Below, one piece after another: positions 36,766 through 44,763 of a DNA stretch of 44,763 bases. Within the stretch, counting starts at the first letter, position 1; every line of letters begins with the position of its first letter. A model generated the notes under the pieces. It had not been told where the DNA came from. It did not search any database and worked only from the letters and a program-made list of their open reading frames with translations. Source of the DNA: Dictyoglomota bacterium. GTDB lineage: Bacteria; Coprothermobacterota; Coprothermobacteria; Coprothermobacterales; JAADFF01. Position numbers and translations under genes: made by a program. The stretch spans positions 1-44,763 of the forward strand of contig JAADFF010000077.1 in NCBI GenBank assembly GCA_013153035.1, in the 5' to 3' direction.

Positions 36766-38697
36766 CTAAATATCAAGATTCTTGACTTCAAGTGCATGTT
36801 CTTCTATAAATTTTCTACGGGGCTCAACTTTCTCTCCCATAAGAATACTCATTATTTCATTGGCCTCCTCTGCATCATCAACAGTTACCTGAAGAAGTAC
36901 CCTTCTACGAGGATCCATCGTTGTAGCCCAAAGCTGTTCAGCATTCATCTCACCAAGACCTTTATACCTTTGAATTTCATACTTCTCAATTCCCTGATCT
37001 TCTAATTCTTTTATAAGCTTTTCAAGTTCCTCGTCAGAGTATATATACTGTACTTTCTTATTCTTACCTCTTCCCCACTCAACCTTATAAAGTGGAGCAA
37101 GAGCTATGTATACATGTCCATTTTCAACAAGTGGTTTCATAAAACGGTAGAAAAATGTCAAAAGCAGAGTTCTAATATGGGCACCGTCAACATCGGCATC
37201 TGTCATGATAATAATCTTGTTATATCTTAGCTTAGAAAGATCAATATCATCACCAATACCTGTTCCAATAGCCGATATCAGGTCACGAATTTCCCTGTTA
37301 GAAAGTATTTTATCCAGTGACGCTTTTTCAACATTAAGGATTTTACCTCGAAGGGGAAGTATTGCCTGATGGGCCCTATCTCTTGCCTGCTTGGCACTAC
37401 CACCAGCTGAATCACCCTCAACGATGAACAGCTCCCTATGCTCAGGATTTTTATCTGAACAATCAGCCAGTTTGCCAGGGAGAAGGCCACCAGCTCTCTT
37501 TGCCTGCTTCTTCACAAGTTCTCGACTCTTTCTCGCAGCCTCTCTTGCCCTTTTAGCTAGCTCTATACGCTCAAGAACGGCCTTTAGCTCAGAGGTACGT
37601 GTGGCAAAGTAGTTATCAACTGCATCATATGTGATTTTATCCACCACAGAACGTACCCAAGAAGTACCAAGCTTACCCTTTGTCTGCCCTTCAAATTGAG
37701 GTTCTGGAAGCTTAACAGATACAACAGCTCTAAGCCCTTCCTTTACATCCTCTGCAGTGTAAGACTGCTTATCCTTCAACACACCTTCTCTACGAGCAAG
37801 GTCATTTATAGCCCTGACAAGTCCTCTTCGGAAACCTGAGACATGGGTACCGCCATCGGCGGTACGAATAGAGTTAACAAATGAATATATGGTTTCTCCA
37901 TCATTTTCTACATACTGAAAGGCCACCTCAACCTCTAAATGAGCTTTTCCATCGGGAGAATCTCCTTCACCCTTAAAATAAACACTTTCTGAAAGGATAG
38001 GCTTTGCTTGACCTATAATCTCTAACAGAAGCTCTTTAATACCCTCTTCGGAATAAAACTCTTTGCTATCACCGGTAAACTCGTCAATTAGGATAAACTT
38101 TACCTTGGGATTGAGATAAGACAACTCTTCCAAACGATCATAAATAATATCATAGTCGAACTTTGTTGTTTCAAATATCTCAGGATCAGGCTTGAATCTG
38201 ACACGAGTCCCTCTCTTGTCTACCCCCTCTTCAACAACAGTAAGCGGTTCTACAACCTTACCTCTTTCAAAACGCATTCTGTAATGCTTACCATCACGCC
38301 ATACATCAACAACAAGCCATTCACTGAGAGCGTTAACAACAGTAACACCAACACCGTGAAGACCACCAGATACTTTATATGCCTTACTATCAAATTTACC
38401 ACCAGCATGGAGTTTGGTAAAAACAACCTCTAGTGCCGACTTCCCGGTTTTAGGATGGACATCTACAGGAATACCTCTTCCGTTATCCTCCACTGAAACA
38501 GAACCATCGGTGTGAAGGGTTACCACTATCTTATCGGCATAACCTGCCATTGCCTCGTCAACAGAGTTGTCAAGTATTTCCCATACAAGATGGTGAAGGC
38601 CACGCCAATCGGTGCTACCTATGTACATAGCCGGCCTTTTTCTAACACCCTCTATCTGCTCTAAAACAACAATATTATCCGCTTTATACTCTCCCAC
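36766..38697 (-). CDS. gyrB: DNA gyrase subunit B
   Basis: ATPase subunit. GHKL motifs EILDNSVDEAMAGYAD, DNGRGIPVDVHPKTG and GGLHGVGVTVVNAL are followed by QTKGKLGTS with the ATP-contacting Lys. The TOPRIM part has EGDSAGGSAKQARDR and IIIMTDADVDGAHI. The C-terminus ends after the GLGEMNAEQLWATTMDP motif. The GTG at 38697 is preferred: it gives MGEYKADNIVVLE, typical of GyrB, and lies 8 bases after GGAGG, whereas the GTG at 38703 is too near that site. It overlaps the DciA-like gene by 14 bases, the order dciA-gyrB-gyrA known from other bacteria. Confidence 0.98.
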   Translation of the reverse strand: MGEYKADNIVVLEQIEGVRKRPAMYIGSTDWRGLHHLVWEILDNSVDEAMAGYADKIVVTLHTDGSVSVEDNGRGIPVDVHPKTGKSALEVVFTKLHAGGKFDSKAYKVSGGLHGVGVTVVNALSEWLVVDVWRDGKHYRMRFERGKVVEPLTVVEEGVDKRGTRVRFKPDPEIFETTKFDYDIIYDRLEELSYLNPKVKFILIDEFTGDSKEFYSEEGIKELLLEIIGQAKPILSESVYFKGEGDSPDGKAHLEVEVAFQYVENDGETIYSFVNSIRTADGGTHVSGFRRGLVRAINDLARREGVLKDKQSYTAEDVKEGLRAVVSVKLPEPQFEGQTKGKLGTSWVRSVVDKITYDAVDNYFATRTSELKAVLERIELAKRAREAARKSRELVKKQAKRAGGLLPGKLADCSDKNPEHRELFIVEGDSAGGSAKQARDRAHQAILPLRGKILNVEKASLDKILSNREIRDLISAIGTGIGDDIDLSKLRYNKIIIMTDADVDGAHIRTLLLTFFYRFMKPLVENGHVYIALAPLYKVEWGRGKNKKVQYIYSDEELEKLIKELEDQGIEKYEIQRYKGLGEMNAEQLWATTMDPRRRVLLQVTVDDAEEANEIMSILMGEKVEPRRKFIEEHALEVKNLDI

Positions 38698-39166
38698 ACG
38701 CACTACCTCCTCTCTGACTCTTCAACCAAATGATTGCCAACCTTTTTTTTATGTCGTTGTCATCTATCATAGAAAACAAACGACTGGCCTTTTCAATTTC
38801 CTCATCAGAAAAACTGATAAACTTATTATGGGCAGTTTGTTCCTCACCTTCTATATTATTATCCCTACCTTGTTTAACAATCTTTATCTTCAAGCTGCTA
38901 ACATGAAAACCATACTTCTTCAAGGTTTTCAAAAACTCACCTTCATACCTCTTAATAGCAGAAGCAACAGCAGGAGAATATGCCCCCACATGAAGTTCTT
39001 CGGTATATATACCCAGTGGCTCCGTAAGAGATGATAAATCAAGCACCTTTCTACCTTTGTGTATACGCATGATATCCTTCCATAGAGTTCTTAACCTCAG
39101 GTAGGCTTTAACACTGGGAGCAGCCGAAGATAACAAATCTCCTGTAGCTTCTTTCATATTCCTCAC
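38684..39166 (-). CDS. DciA-like (DUF721) protein
   Basis: A 160-residue protein. Residues about 20-95 (SVKAYLRLRTLWKDIM...LGIYTEELHVGAYSPAVASAI) resemble the DUF721/DciA domain, which loads the replicative helicase DnaB in bacteria lacking DnaC or DnaI: a Trp in a helix, then TEEL-h-V, then a long helix. A charged C-terminal tail follows. The similarity is modest, but position directly before gyrB supports it, since DUF721 genes often sit between recF and gyrB. The GTG start overlaps the previous stop in GTGA. No recF or dnaN is adjacent. Confidence 0.6.
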   Translation of the reverse strand: MRNMKEATGDLLSSAAPSVKAYLRLRTLWKDIMRIHKGRKVLDLSSLTEPLGIYTEELHVGAYSPAVASAIKRYEGEFLKTLKKYGFHVSSLKIKIVKQGRDNNIEGEEQTAHNKFISFSDEEIEKASRLFSMIDDNDIKKRLAIIWLKSQRGGSACGRV

Positions 39167-40835: not shown

Positions 40836-40862
40836 GTAGTCATGTATAATTCATTTGGAGCC

Positions 40863-42440
40863 ATGAGAAAAACATACATAGCTGTAATCATTGCATTAAC
40901 AATAATCGGAAGCTTTCTTAGTTTATCGGTCTCTGCCATTGCCACACCTCAACTCATTAATATAGAAATAGGTCGAAACTTCGTCAAACTGACACCTGCC
41001 CCACTACATATGAAACAAATAAGTGATAACTTTTACAAGATATACAAGTTTCCAGATACAACTGTTGGCAGTGCATCATCGACAAACTCTTCATCTATCG
41101 CTCTACTTACTACATACCCAATAACTATTGTCACTCCAACAAACTACATTGCCACTTCGACAGACGAAAGTCTCATTATAGCACCCCGCGACTTTTTTAT
41201 TTCCACTCCGTCAACAGCAAGCACATCTACAGGAACAGAAACAGGAAGTCAAACAACAACACCTACGGAAAGTCAAACTTCTACACCACATATTATAGTT
41301 GCAGACATCAAGCTGATACCAAAATCAGAAAGAGGAGAAACTTTCATATTCTTGTCTGGTGAAGATCTGTATAAGATTCTGATGGCATACACACGACATC
41401 ATGAAATAAGTACACCAACAGAAACGGTAAAATCTATTGCATACAGCACTGCCAAATGGAGTAAAACCTTTGGCATTGATCCGTTGCTTATACTCGCCCA
41501 AATGAGATGGGAAAGTAAATTTAAACCTTATGCACGCAGCAAAAGCGATGCTAAAGGCCTTATGCAACTAAAGGATTTTGTATATCAGCCCATAGCAAAT
41601 TTTTTAGGGTTAGACACAAGTACAAATGCCATATATGACATCGACAACAATATCGCAGCAGGCACATATTACATGTATTACAAGATGAGAACATGGGGTA
41701 CTGAAGCCGGGGCCCTTGGGGCCTATCTTCTAGGAGACACAGGCTATCTACAAGCCCTCTGGAATGAAACAGAAGGCAAAGATTCTATAGGGACAACATA
41801 CAACAAATATATCGCCAAGATAATGAATACTCGGAACGAACTAAGATCTTATATAGGTCTTCCTCCCTATAATAAACCTCTTAGCGTCTACATATCACCA
41901 GGGCATGGGACCTATGATAATGGTTACTATGATATGGGGGCCATTGTGGGGCAATACTACGAAAGTCGGATAAACCTTGCTATTGCTTTGAAACTGAAAA
42001 ACATACTAGAAAGCAAAGGGATCAAAGTATATATGGCTCGTACAGAAGAAAATAATCCTGAAACTCCATATCTTTCAGAGCGGGTTCGTATGATCAACCT
42101 ACTTCATCCCAATGTTGTTATTAGTATCCATGCTAATGCCAATCCCTACTCAAAATCCATACGAGGATATGAAATCTACTATCGCAAAGCATATGATAGG
42201 TTCCTCGCCAAATCTATAGACAAGTCTATGGATTTGATAAGTCCTATTCCAAAACATAAGGATCCTCAATACATGAAACTAATTATACTATCTGGATGGC
42301 CACCATCAGTTCTCATAGAGACAGGATACATGACAAATAGCCAAGATCTTAGCATTTTACTCAATGATAATTACCAATCTGCTATTGCACAATCAATAGC
42401 CGAGGGGGTTTTAACCTTCCTTGGAAGCGACAATCGTTAA
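40863..42440 (+). CDS. Bifunctional cell-wall hydrolase: SLT lytic transglycosylase plus amidase_3
   Basis: Sec signal peptide (residues about 1-25, ending SVSA), a diverged region, a Ser/Thr-rich linker (STSTGTETGSQTTTPTESQTS), then a lytic transglycosylase-like domain with catalytic Glu in ILAQMRWESKFKPYA and KSDAKGLMQLKDF. After about residue 325 comes an N-acetylmuramoyl-L-alanine amidase domain: VYISPGHGT (zinc His), YESRINLAIALKLK (zinc Glu), VISIHANAN (zinc His) and VLIETGYMTN (catalytic Glu). One protein could cleave both glycan and peptide bonds of peptidoglycan. Start ATG 40863 is chosen for the signal peptide and GGAG just upstream (short spacing); an ATG at 40842 has no SD. Confidence 0.88.
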   Translation: MRKTYIAVIIALTIIGSFLSLSVSAIATPQLINIEIGRNFVKLTPAPLHMKQISDNFYKIYKFPDTTVGSASSTNSSSIALLTTYPITIVTPTNYIATSTDESLIIAPRDFFISTPSTASTSTGTETGSQTTTPTESQTSTPHIIVADIKLIPKSERGETFIFLSGEDLYKILMAYTRHHEISTPTETVKSIAYSTAKWSKTFGIDPLLILAQMRWESKFKPYARSKSDAKGLMQLKDFVYQPIANFLGLDTSTNAIYDIDNNIAAGTYYMYYKMRTWGTEAGALGAYLLGDTGYLQALWNETEGKDSIGTTYNKYIAKIMNTRNELRSYIGLPPYNKPLSVYISPGHGTYDNGYYDMGAIVGQYYESRINLAIALKLKNILESKGIKVYMARTEENNPETPYLSERVRMINLLHPNVVISIHANANPYSKSIRGYEIYYRKAYDRFLAKSIDKSMDLISPIPKHKDPQYMKLIILSGWPPSVLIETGYMTNSQDLSILLNDNYQSAIAQSIAEGVLTFLGSDNR

Positions 42441-43704
42441 TTTAGACCTTCTTATATCGGCCATCATTCATGATCTGGGAAAAGTATCTCTTGAATATTT
42501 TTTATCTAAAGAAAATAACAGTTACATACCTGACATGCACGCTCATATACTTCTAGATAAGTACCCACATATTAGGAGTATTTTAGAGAAATCTACATTA
42601 TGGGCACCTGATATAACATACCTCGATATAATGACAAAACATCATGATAGCTATGTTACTGGAACACTGAAGATATTTAAAGAAGCAGATAGACAAGATC
42701 ATATAAAAAACTTTTCATTTCCCCCTCCAGTGCAGACCCGTACACCAGTAAAAGACCACATGATACAAATGAACTTCTTTGGAAAAACGATTAAATGCAG
42801 TATCTCAGAAATTCCGCACATGCAAAAACTTTTAGCAAAAAACCTTAAGATCCTCATTAACGGATACATGAAGGATAAGGTAGAAGTTATAAACAAGATA
42901 TACAAACCAATATTATCGTATTGCCCAACAGACAATAGGCCGGCATACAGTGTTAGTATATGGGACCACAGCATAAGTTTATACATGTATCTTCTGAATA
43001 TTAGAAACATCAAACACCCTTTACAAGAATATTCTCACCCCGAATGCTCACTTTTCCACCCTTATGGAAACATAAATTTGTGGAAACAAGTATATCCATA
43101 CTATGAAGCTTTATTTCAAGCAAGCGCATATTCACTAGTGAAAAATCTGGAAGATATTCAGAAAGGGACAGAGAAACATATATCTCACTTACCACACAAT
43201 GGAGAACTGCATCGCCTGTTGTTTATGAAAAGAAACATTAATTACTTAAAAGCTATGGCGAAAAAGCATGATCCGAAATATATTGAATATATCTTCAGAC
43301 GTATTCTCGGACTATCCAAACCACCATCTATTAGTAACATAGCATATAGAACTATAAGATCATATTTAAACCTTGTCTATAATCACAACTATACCCATAT
43401 CGGTGCGTTATTCTACATGTTTTTCGTGAGAAAGGTATCTCTAACAGATATATTACAAATTCAGCGCATAGGCACAAATGGACCTCTACAACCTCTCTTA
43501 GGAACACCAAATAGTAAAACATGTATATATAAAGGCAAATTTCACAATCCATTTCCATGGATATACACAACAAAAGATAAGGGTACGGCTATCAAAAAGA
43601 ACTTATACATAACAAGCAGAAATCACAATATTCTTGTAAATCAATCAGAAATCTTCCTCAAACGGATCGGCCCAAAAAGGTACAGATTTACCACCAATTG
43701 TTAA
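42421..43704 (+). CDS. HD-domain protein with Cas10/Csm1-like N-terminal half
   Basis: A 427-residue soluble protein. The N-terminus shows HDLGK (H17/D18), H40/H42, HH at 74-75 and EADRQD (D90), the HD metal-ligand pattern. A second region, CPTDNRPAYSVSIWDHSISL (about 168-187), resembles the SLYDH-type segment that follows the HD domain in type III Cas10 (Csm1/Cmr2). No Palm/GGDEF, zinc finger or GGGH follows; residues 190-427 are unrecognised, rich in Tyr and His. No CRISPR array or other cas gene is seen. The TTG start at 42421 overlaps the amidase gene by 20 bases, with only a distant SD. The 3' end overlaps the convergent gene by 60 bases. The Cas10 relation is by eye. Confidence 0.7.
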   Translation: MEATIVNLDLLISAIIHDLGKVSLEYFLSKENNSYIPDMHAHILLDKYPHIRSILEKSTLWAPDITYLDIMTKHHDSYVTGTLKIFKEADRQDHIKNFSFPPPVQTRTPVKDHMIQMNFFGKTIKCSISEIPHMQKLLAKNLKILINGYMKDKVEVINKIYKPILSYCPTDNRPAYSVSIWDHSISLYMYLLNIRNIKHPLQEYSHPECSLFHPYGNINLWKQVYPYYEALFQASAYSLVKNLEDIQKGTEKHISHLPHNGELHRLLFMKRNINYLKAMAKKHDPKYIEYIFRRILGLSKPPSISNIAYRTIRSYLNLVYNHNYTHIGALFYMFFVRKVSLTDILQIQRIGTNGPLQPLLGTPNSKTCIYKGKFHNPFPWIYTTKDKGTAIKKNLYITSRNHNILVNQSEIFLKRIGPKRYRFTTNC

Positions 43705-44763
43705 GATAACGCTAGTTACCTCTTTAGCAGAGATAGTACTTCGCAATATAGCTTGTGTTATCTCTCTTGAAGGGATATACTTCAAATCAATTACAGCTTT
43801 TCCATTACCGATCTTTACCGAATTAATAACAGGGAAAGTATCGCTCAGCTGCTTAGTAAAAGACAATCTATCTCCCATTCGGGCTAAGAAATCGTCTCCC
43901 GTTGTGGGCACAAGCAAAATTGGGTCCAATCTTGTATCTACGTATGGCAAAGCTTTCTCATCTTCCACACGAATAGTAGAAATATAAGGATAAAGGTACA
44001 TCATGTTGTATATAAGAGCATACCTCACATATGGATCTGCACCGGCAAAAGAACCTTTTTTCACTTTAACTGTTAAGACATTGTTTTCAAATGATACCGA
44101 AGTCACCATATCTATAAAGTCTGTATCCCCAAGCTGAGAAGCCATCTTAAGAACAGTCATGAAGTATGATGTCAAATCAGACTTATTGATTGCTTCGTCA
44201 TATATCCAACGAGCCCTTACACTACTACCTCGAACATAGAAAACCATATAACCATCCTTAGCATCACAGGGAATAAACTTTCTTATGTTCATACCATCAT
44301 AATACAAAATAACATGTTCATTGATATTTTGCTCTATATTATCCAAGGCTTGACATATCTGTTGCCTTATACGCCAAGAGGTATAAAACGGTATTCCACT
44401 ACCAGATAAATAAACTTCCCAACCAGATGTTCCCTTCTCCACAGATATAATTCTTAGCTTATTCTTGGTATCGTATCCTAAAGTAAAGCCGTTATGTTCT
44501 GAAAATTGAGAATATACATAAGAAATGGTAAACTCTTCTCCAGCATCGGCAATCTTCTTCTTTTCATATGTTATCTTCCCTTCTTGAAAAACGGGAATCG
44601 CAATATTTAAGTAAGTTTTCTGAATTACATCAGTCTTAGTGTCACTATGGTTTCCAAATATCCATGGAAAAAGTACTGTCATGGATTTATAAGTTAAAAA
44701 CAACAAAATAGCTACAACAACCATAGCACCAATAAAAACAGTAAATAAGTACCTAAGCCATGA
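43645..44763 (-). CDS. Membrane-anchored GerMN-like protein (5' end outside window)
   Basis: The frame is open to the window end, and 13 codons upstream of the ATG at 44724 carry no start codon, so the gene probably begins outside. A hydrophobic stretch (WLRYLFTVFIGAMVVVAILLFLTY) forms the anchor. The outer part has two possible GerMN-type repeats; the second, ending in VKIGNGKAVIDLKYI then ITQAILRSTISAKEVTSVIL, is the better match to GerMN (a Val-Asp-Leu motif, then a Gln-x-Ile helix and a V-x-V-x-I strand). GerMN domains occur in spore-germination and cell-wall proteins, but no sporulation gene is here. It converges on the HD gene with a 60-base overlap. Confidence 0.65.
   Translation of the reverse strand, partial: SWLRYLFTVFIGAMVVVAILLFLTYKSMTVLFPWIFGNHSDTKTDVIQKTYLNIAIPVFQEGKITYEKKKIADAGEEFTISYVYSQFSEHNGFTLGYDTKNKLRIISVEKGTSGWEVYLSGSGIPFYTSWRIRQQICQALDNIEQNINEHVILYYDGMNIRKFIPCDAKDGYMVFYVRGSSVRARWIYDEAINKSDLTSYFMTVLKMASQLGDTDFIDMVTSVSFENNVLTVKVKKGSFAGADPYVRYALIYNMMYLYPYISTIRVEDEKALPYVDTRLDPILLVPTTGDDFLARMGDRLSFTKQLSDTFPVINSVKIGNGKAVIDLKYIPSREITQAILRSTISAKEVTSVILTIGGKSVPFWADPFEEDF

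Follow-up and report, generated by a model that had tools for sequence, protein, structure and literature searches.

A stand-alone protein with a permuted, Cas10-type HD domain, most likely of Csx11-type descent

Cas10 proteins of type III CRISPR systems carry an HD domain that acts on single-stranded nucleic acid (PMC5965380, PMC10212523). Its mark is a circular permutation, which places the matching histidine at the end of the domain (PMC3150331, PMC10212523). Csm1 and Cmr2, of types III-A and III-B, display this permuted order as HD...HH...D...SLYDH, in proteins that have an active GGDD cyclase of their own, a zinc finger and a place in a CRISPR operon. Csx11, the Cas10 of type III-C (TIGR02682; PADLOC PDLC01314), has the same permuted HD domain with a DTRRPxNDVTLWDHS segment, and its cyclase is inactive (PMC8730458, PMC11229360). 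The HD domains of type I systems, found in Cas3'' and Cas10d, are likewise metal nucleases of the HD superfamily, but they are not permuted (PMC3150331, PMC10212523). Reduced Cas10s have been described inside CRISPR loci (PMC12669027), and the Cas10 of III-I and the Csf1-HD of IV-C are examples of large subunits that are reduced or bear a Cas10 HD domain (PMC12669027, PMC8730458). The lone polymerase half of Cas10 has been described outside CRISPR as mCpol, a minimal Cas10 made of the polymerase domain (PMC8730458). In the openly readable papers that we searched, a lone HD half of Cas10 living outside CRISPR does not appear, though an earlier mention elsewhere is possible.

Here we describe a gene in a 44,763-nucleotide stretch of DNA from a member of the Coprothermobacterota (contig JAADFF010000077.1; the whole stretch is referred to as the window). 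Judging from its sequence, the product is most likely a metal-dependent HD hydrolase that stands alone and derives from a Csx11-type Cas10. The window protein has the permuted HD domain, the ligand order and the closing segment of Csx11 but less than half its length, and it is without the zinc finger and the DEIAD/GKF Palm segment. Long members of its family also share with Csx11 the start of Palm1, a KxPSxxRL segment and a C-terminal LPxTLGxGxxDxYY region. Unlike the gene for Csx11, the family gene does not lie in a RAMP operon, and it is present in genomes without CRISPR. Csm1 and Cmr2 share the permuted order but are more distant, and in contrast to the type I domains the window protein has its matching histidine, residue 183, at the domain end. 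With respect to mCpol, likewise a Cas10 homologue outside CRISPR, the family is the opposite case: in mCpol the cyclase remains and the HD domain is absent, whereas in this family the HD domain remains and the cyclase is absent. The III-I Cas10 and the IV-C Csf1-HD reside in CRISPR effector modules, and the family does not. We put at roughly 0.7 the probability that the window protein is a free-standing relative of Csx11-type Cas10, in which the HD domain alone keeps its catalytic residues, inherited vertically and independently of CRISPR, and acting, as we propose, as a phosphodiester hydrolase.

The HD gene and its match to Cas10

The gene for this stand-alone protein of 427 amino acids occupies positions 42421..43704 of the forward strand, as an earlier note on this DNA had placed it, and begins with a TTG codon. 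Its first 20 bases are shared with the end of the amidase gene upstream. Its 3' end is overlapped by ~60 bases by a convergent gene (43645..44724, reverse strand) that matched no Pfam or NCBIfam family above the cut-off, is conserved in a genus-mate and is considered here as context only. At the corresponding place, the genus-mate (G001) has a gene whose product is 60% identical and which likewise starts at a TTG inside the upstream gene. Between these two genes there are 125, 89 and 237 changes at codon positions 1, 2 and 3, with a dN of 0.32 and a dS of about 2.2, which is near saturation. The excess at third positions, together with this dN at a dS near saturation, places the frame under purifying selection; 42421-43704 is a real gene, though one evolving more quickly than the genes around it (dN 0.32 vs 0.03-0.16).

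The predicted metal ligands are distributed over several motifs, all on the forward strand. The HD motif HDLGK (residues 17-21; 42469..42483) supplies H17 and D18 and is followed by K30...D38-x-H40 (42508..42540), a signature of the family whose H40 aligns with the site of a further histidine in Csm1 proteins. Next come H74-H75 (42640..42645) and EADRQD (residues 88-93; 42682..42699), which contains D90. The permuted segment CPTDNRPAYSVSIWDHS (residues 168-184; 42922..42972) bears H183, as seen in alignment with Csx11 and Csm1; its equivalents are SETRRPxNDxTLWDHS in the family and DTRRPxNDVTLWDHS in Csx11. These motifs, HDLGK, HH, EADRQD and CPTDNRPAYSVSIWDHS, lie where the earlier note had located them. 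The resulting order, H17-D18, H40, H74-H75, D90 and then H183, is that of a permuted HD domain.

Across 28 family members, eleven residues of the HD part do not vary, H17, D18, H40, H74, H75 and H183 among them. K21 and S23 show no variation alongside H17 and D18, and the K30...D38-x-H40 signature, H74-H75 and R173 with H183 are invariant as well. The invariant ligands persist at 15-24% identity to the window protein (28 sequences, outside the genus), and D90 is the one ligand that varies. The window protein keeps every predicted metal-binding residue of the Cas10 nuclease domain. Members from Coprothermobacter have HDINK in place of HDxGK and Glu in place of D90, so their activity is less sure.

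A III-D Cas10 (PDB 8bmw chain K) may show the other arrangement, as its ADTRPGYNFTSLASH stretch precedes HDIGKL and does not come after it. This motif order suggests a non-permuted HD domain in that protein, and it favours taking the DHS histidine for the first of the HD ligands.

Profile searches connected the window protein to Csx11. Its single PADLOC match was Cas10c (Csx11, III-C), over residues 12-186 (E=4.3e-6), and the first 204 residues alone gave a stronger match (E=6.4e-7). In profile-profile comparison, the window protein and its sister matched Csx11 N-termini across the HD and SIWDHS blocks (E=3.8e-10, score 70.9, 172 columns), while 30 column-shuffled control copies reached a maximum score of 17.0. 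The same pair matched Csm1 at E=3e-5 over just 15 columns and PgpH (an ordinary HD hydrolase, same order) at 0.0035. The HD part of the whole family matched Csx11 over 204 columns (E=6.7e-31), and the HD domains of Cas3'' and Cas10d gave weak profile matches to the window protein. Searched against Pfam, NCBIfam and PHROGs, the window protein had nothing above threshold, Pfam HD falling below the cut-off. A PDB sequence search with this protein alone returned chance matches, and a search with the family profile returned sub-significant matches to Cas10 (III-D, E=0.027; Csm1, E=0.1). The resemblance to Cas10 that the earlier note had proposed is therefore significant over both blocks, and no unrelated HD family that left residues 168-187 unmatched emerged in its place. 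The closest relative, however, is Csx11 of type III-C, and not Csm1/Cmr2 generally, with which the note had compared the protein.

AlphaFold2 modelled the HD part of the window protein, together with 28 family rows, as a helical domain with good confidence (pLDDT 86.7, pTM 0.86); the C-terminal half was modelled as helices of moderate to low confidence. With both models, Foldseek found no match in the PDB at E<=0.001, and its top rows were noise (actin, at an rmsd of about 20 Å); the PDB that was searched does contain Cas10 and Cas3 HD chains. A search of BFVD with one model likewise returned noise only. This noise is not a rival fold, and we weigh it for neither side, though it is surprising for an HD domain; the case for Cas10 descent consequently rests on sequence profiles. 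The lack of a Cas10 match from Foldseek and the Pfam HD score below cut-off would also suit an HD hydrolase of other origin that happens to contain a SIWDHS-like stretch, but we give such a chance resemblance hardly any credence. It is refuted by the profile matches over both blocks, by the shuffled controls and by long intermediates that have Csx11 C-termini, given that these intermediates are homologous to the window protein (E=7.5e-6; E=3.8e-10).

Family members and the loss of Cas10 domains

The window protein belongs to an unnamed family of about 430-720 amino acids, found in six of seven Coprothermobacterales genomes (the members of the G002-G006 group being 434-437 amino acids long). 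Both genomes of another, deeper family of the same phylum contain it as open frames of about 620-716 amino acids. In a second phylum, Caldisericota, it is present in 25 of 54 genomes, including 14 of the 18 genomes of one family, all five of another and four of five in a third. When the sample was widened to 386 genomes, most of the other strong matches were Cas10 proteins of about 1000 amino acids. A search of genome contigs with the window protein alone found no relative; a search of genome contigs with the family alignment returned the Caldisericota and Coprothermobacterota members along with three type III-C Cas10s. As there is no Pfam or NCBIfam model for the family, its members would be annotated as hypothetical.

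The long members (about 620-690 amino acids) matched Csx11 in three segments: a 277-column stretch that takes in the HD domain and enters Palm1 (E=5.6e-44), a KGPSFSRL segment (E=2.7e-4) and the C-terminus (114 columns, E=5.8e-10). These segments occur in the same order as in Csx11, and what lies between them lacks both the zinc finger and the DEIAD...GKF Palm segment. Among the Caldisericota members of about 490-585 amino acids, the last segment is absent in part of the group.

The C-terminal half of the window protein (~residues 218-350; 43072..43470, forward strand) is helical in the model and includes H253, PPSI (301-304) and FFVRKVSLTDIL. It matched the C-terminal half of the Caldisericota members (E=7.5e-6). 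A comparison of this half with Csx11 gave no match (E=0.5), so the Palm1/Palm2 cyclase expected of a whole Cas10 was not found in it, and the treble-clef zinc finger motif, CxxC...CxxC, is absent from the translation of the window protein. The earlier note had described the Palm, zinc and GGDEF parts as missing, and the cyclase and zinc parts are indeed lost or worn away. Its further suggestion, that a foreign C-terminal half had been attached, did not survive: this half is common to the whole family and is present here in a worn form, and what the longer relatives display is the erosion of a Cas10 and not the fusion of an HD domain to something new.

Stepwise shrinkage of a Csx11-type Cas10 is the simplest reading of these sequences. 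A tree split the family and Csx11 from Csm1 with 100/100 support and left the order inside that group unfixed; a single origin of the family was not rejected (p-AU 0.40), nor did the tree establish it. Our case for the direction of change comes from domain content. An ancestral form predating Cas10 is disfavoured by the long members, which have the Csx11 C-terminus but not the middle part. An HD-dependent lineage is a plausible starting point for such shrinkage, since the cyclase of Csx11 is inactive.

A series of sizes falling from about 1000 to 430 amino acids, in a gene that changes faster than its neighbours, could also mark a decaying Cas10 remnant that has no present function. We judge this very improbable, and as a general account it is refuted by the invariant active site: the frames are open in two phyla and under purifying selection, and the ligands are invariant at 15-24% identity.

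Two Caldisericota members (L009 and L065) contain long, low-complexity inserts rich in Asn, Thr and Ala between conserved blocks, and the L065 sequence also has masked bases. Separately, a type III-C locus in genome G386 (L104, 7392-10256) has a split Cas10, with a 467-amino-acid, HD-containing ORF and a separate ORF of 350 amino acids with 57% identity to the C-terminal third of a 956-amino-acid Cas10 that is intact. This arrangement is either a split gene or else a frameshift or assembly fault.

Separation of the family from CRISPR loci

We found no CRISPR-like repeat array within the window, as the earlier note had reported, and neither RAMP nor Cas1 genes in the whole genome assembly to which it belongs (94% complete). 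Cas1 and RAMPs were also undetected in the Coprothermobacter-like genomes G002, G004 and G006 and in G145, G158, G162, G186 and G195, and G153 has Cas1 and no RAMP. In any one of these assemblies, which are 68-100% complete, an absence could reflect a gap, but G002 and G153, each a single contig, follow the same pattern. Other carriers have type III genes too (G001, G007, G008, G021, G149, G156, G160 and G194). In G021 these genes lie ~30 kb from the family gene on the same contig, and in relatives of G021 the family gene sits beside the same LipS genes. The family gene was found neither in phage records nor in viral contigs, and the one plasmid match proved to be a Cas10-like protein encoded within a CRISPR module of Thermus. 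Linkage to CRISPR has been lost in this family. The earlier idea of a Cas10 relative turned stand-alone is supported by the Cas10 match together with the absence of Cas1 and RAMPs from the genome of the window.

The carriers that also have type III genes raise the question of whether the protein still acts in trans, as an HD subunit for type III complexes whose genes lie elsewhere in the genome. This is improbable, and we reject it as a general account, because many carriers lack any RAMP, including the genome of the window, G002, G153, G145, G158 and G162.

Proposed activity and genomic neighbourhood

The catalysis, substrate, switch and role that we infer for the window protein can be set out as follows. 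H17, D18, H40, H74, H75, D90 and H183 would coordinate one or two divalent metals, with whose help the domain would hydrolyse phosphodiester bonds. Single-stranded DNA or RNA is the most likely substrate because Cas10 HD domains act on single-stranded nucleic acid, and the predicted hydrolase is, by this analogy, probably a single-strand nuclease. The helical C-terminal half may take over substrate binding or control, functions that in Cas10 are supplied by crRNA and the RAMP subunits.

Neighbours of the family gene are housekeeping genes, kept within each lineage and different between lineages. The conserved neighbourhood that the earlier note would have counted as support exists within each lineage but does not extend from one lineage to another. 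Outside the lineage of the window, the neighbours are LipS1/LipS2-like radical SAM genes, a NUDIX/XerD-like/M20 set, DUF58 with DUF4129, or PhoH with PgpH and YbeY. Such lineage-bound neighbourhoods fit vertical inheritance without a fixed partner. No partner gene was common to all lineages, and the genomic context thus speaks for no particular substrate or role.

Outside CRISPR, HD enzymes are often nucleotide phosphohydrolases, and a core, vertically kept gene beside housekeeping genes might encode another. The protein would then have the same Cas10 descent, and its HD domain would hydrolyse a nucleotide, a cyclic dinucleotide or a cyclic oligoadenylate in a housekeeping or signalling role; the extra invariants K30, D38 and R173 could shape a small-molecule pocket. 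We consider this unlikely, since the closest kin, the HD domain of Cas10, works on single-stranded nucleic acid (PMC5965380, PMC10212523), and the neighbourhoods show no recurring gene for a cyclase, a sensor or a nucleotide pathway.

An antiviral role independent of CRISPR, in which infection would unleash the HD nuclease to degrade invading or exposed nucleic acid, overlaps with the phosphodiester hydrolase that we prefer and is possible but not probable. Cas10 ancestry agrees with it, as do the faster change of the HD gene relative to its neighbours and the reliance of the closest Cas10 class on its HD domain without cyclic oligoadenylate (PMC11229360). Against it, there is no defence island, the ten window genes near the HD gene having only generic ABC-type ATPase matches in PADLOC, and the gene is vertically inherited, with no copy found on plasmids or phages.

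For the history of the phosphodiester hydrolase we lean, a little beyond even odds, towards domestication: a Csx11-type Cas10 would have left CRISPR and lost its cyclase and zinc finger stepwise (about 1000, 690, 560 and 430 amino acids), and its HD nuclease would have become a core gene of two phyla with a guide-free job in the cell or in innate defence. If this is true, the family is the mirror image of mCpol, the proposed ancestor of type III systems, and would add a case of a Cas protein leaving RNA-guided immunity. A lone Cas10 HD domain would show what the type III HD domain does without a guide complex, and the window protein would be a small protein for HD biochemistry.

Within the window, the gene directly upstream (40842..42440, forward strand) was assigned by Pfam to a cell-wall enzyme and is treated as context only. 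Its product combines an SLT transglycosylase domain (204-301) with Amidase_3 (349-523), two cell-wall cleaving activities in one chain. This gene adjoins the family gene in this genus only, and a functional link to the amidase was dropped because other lineages have other neighbours. Farther upstream, the reverse-strand gene at 38684-39166 encodes a DciA-like protein, a sub-threshold match (E=0.0036), directly upstream of gyrB.
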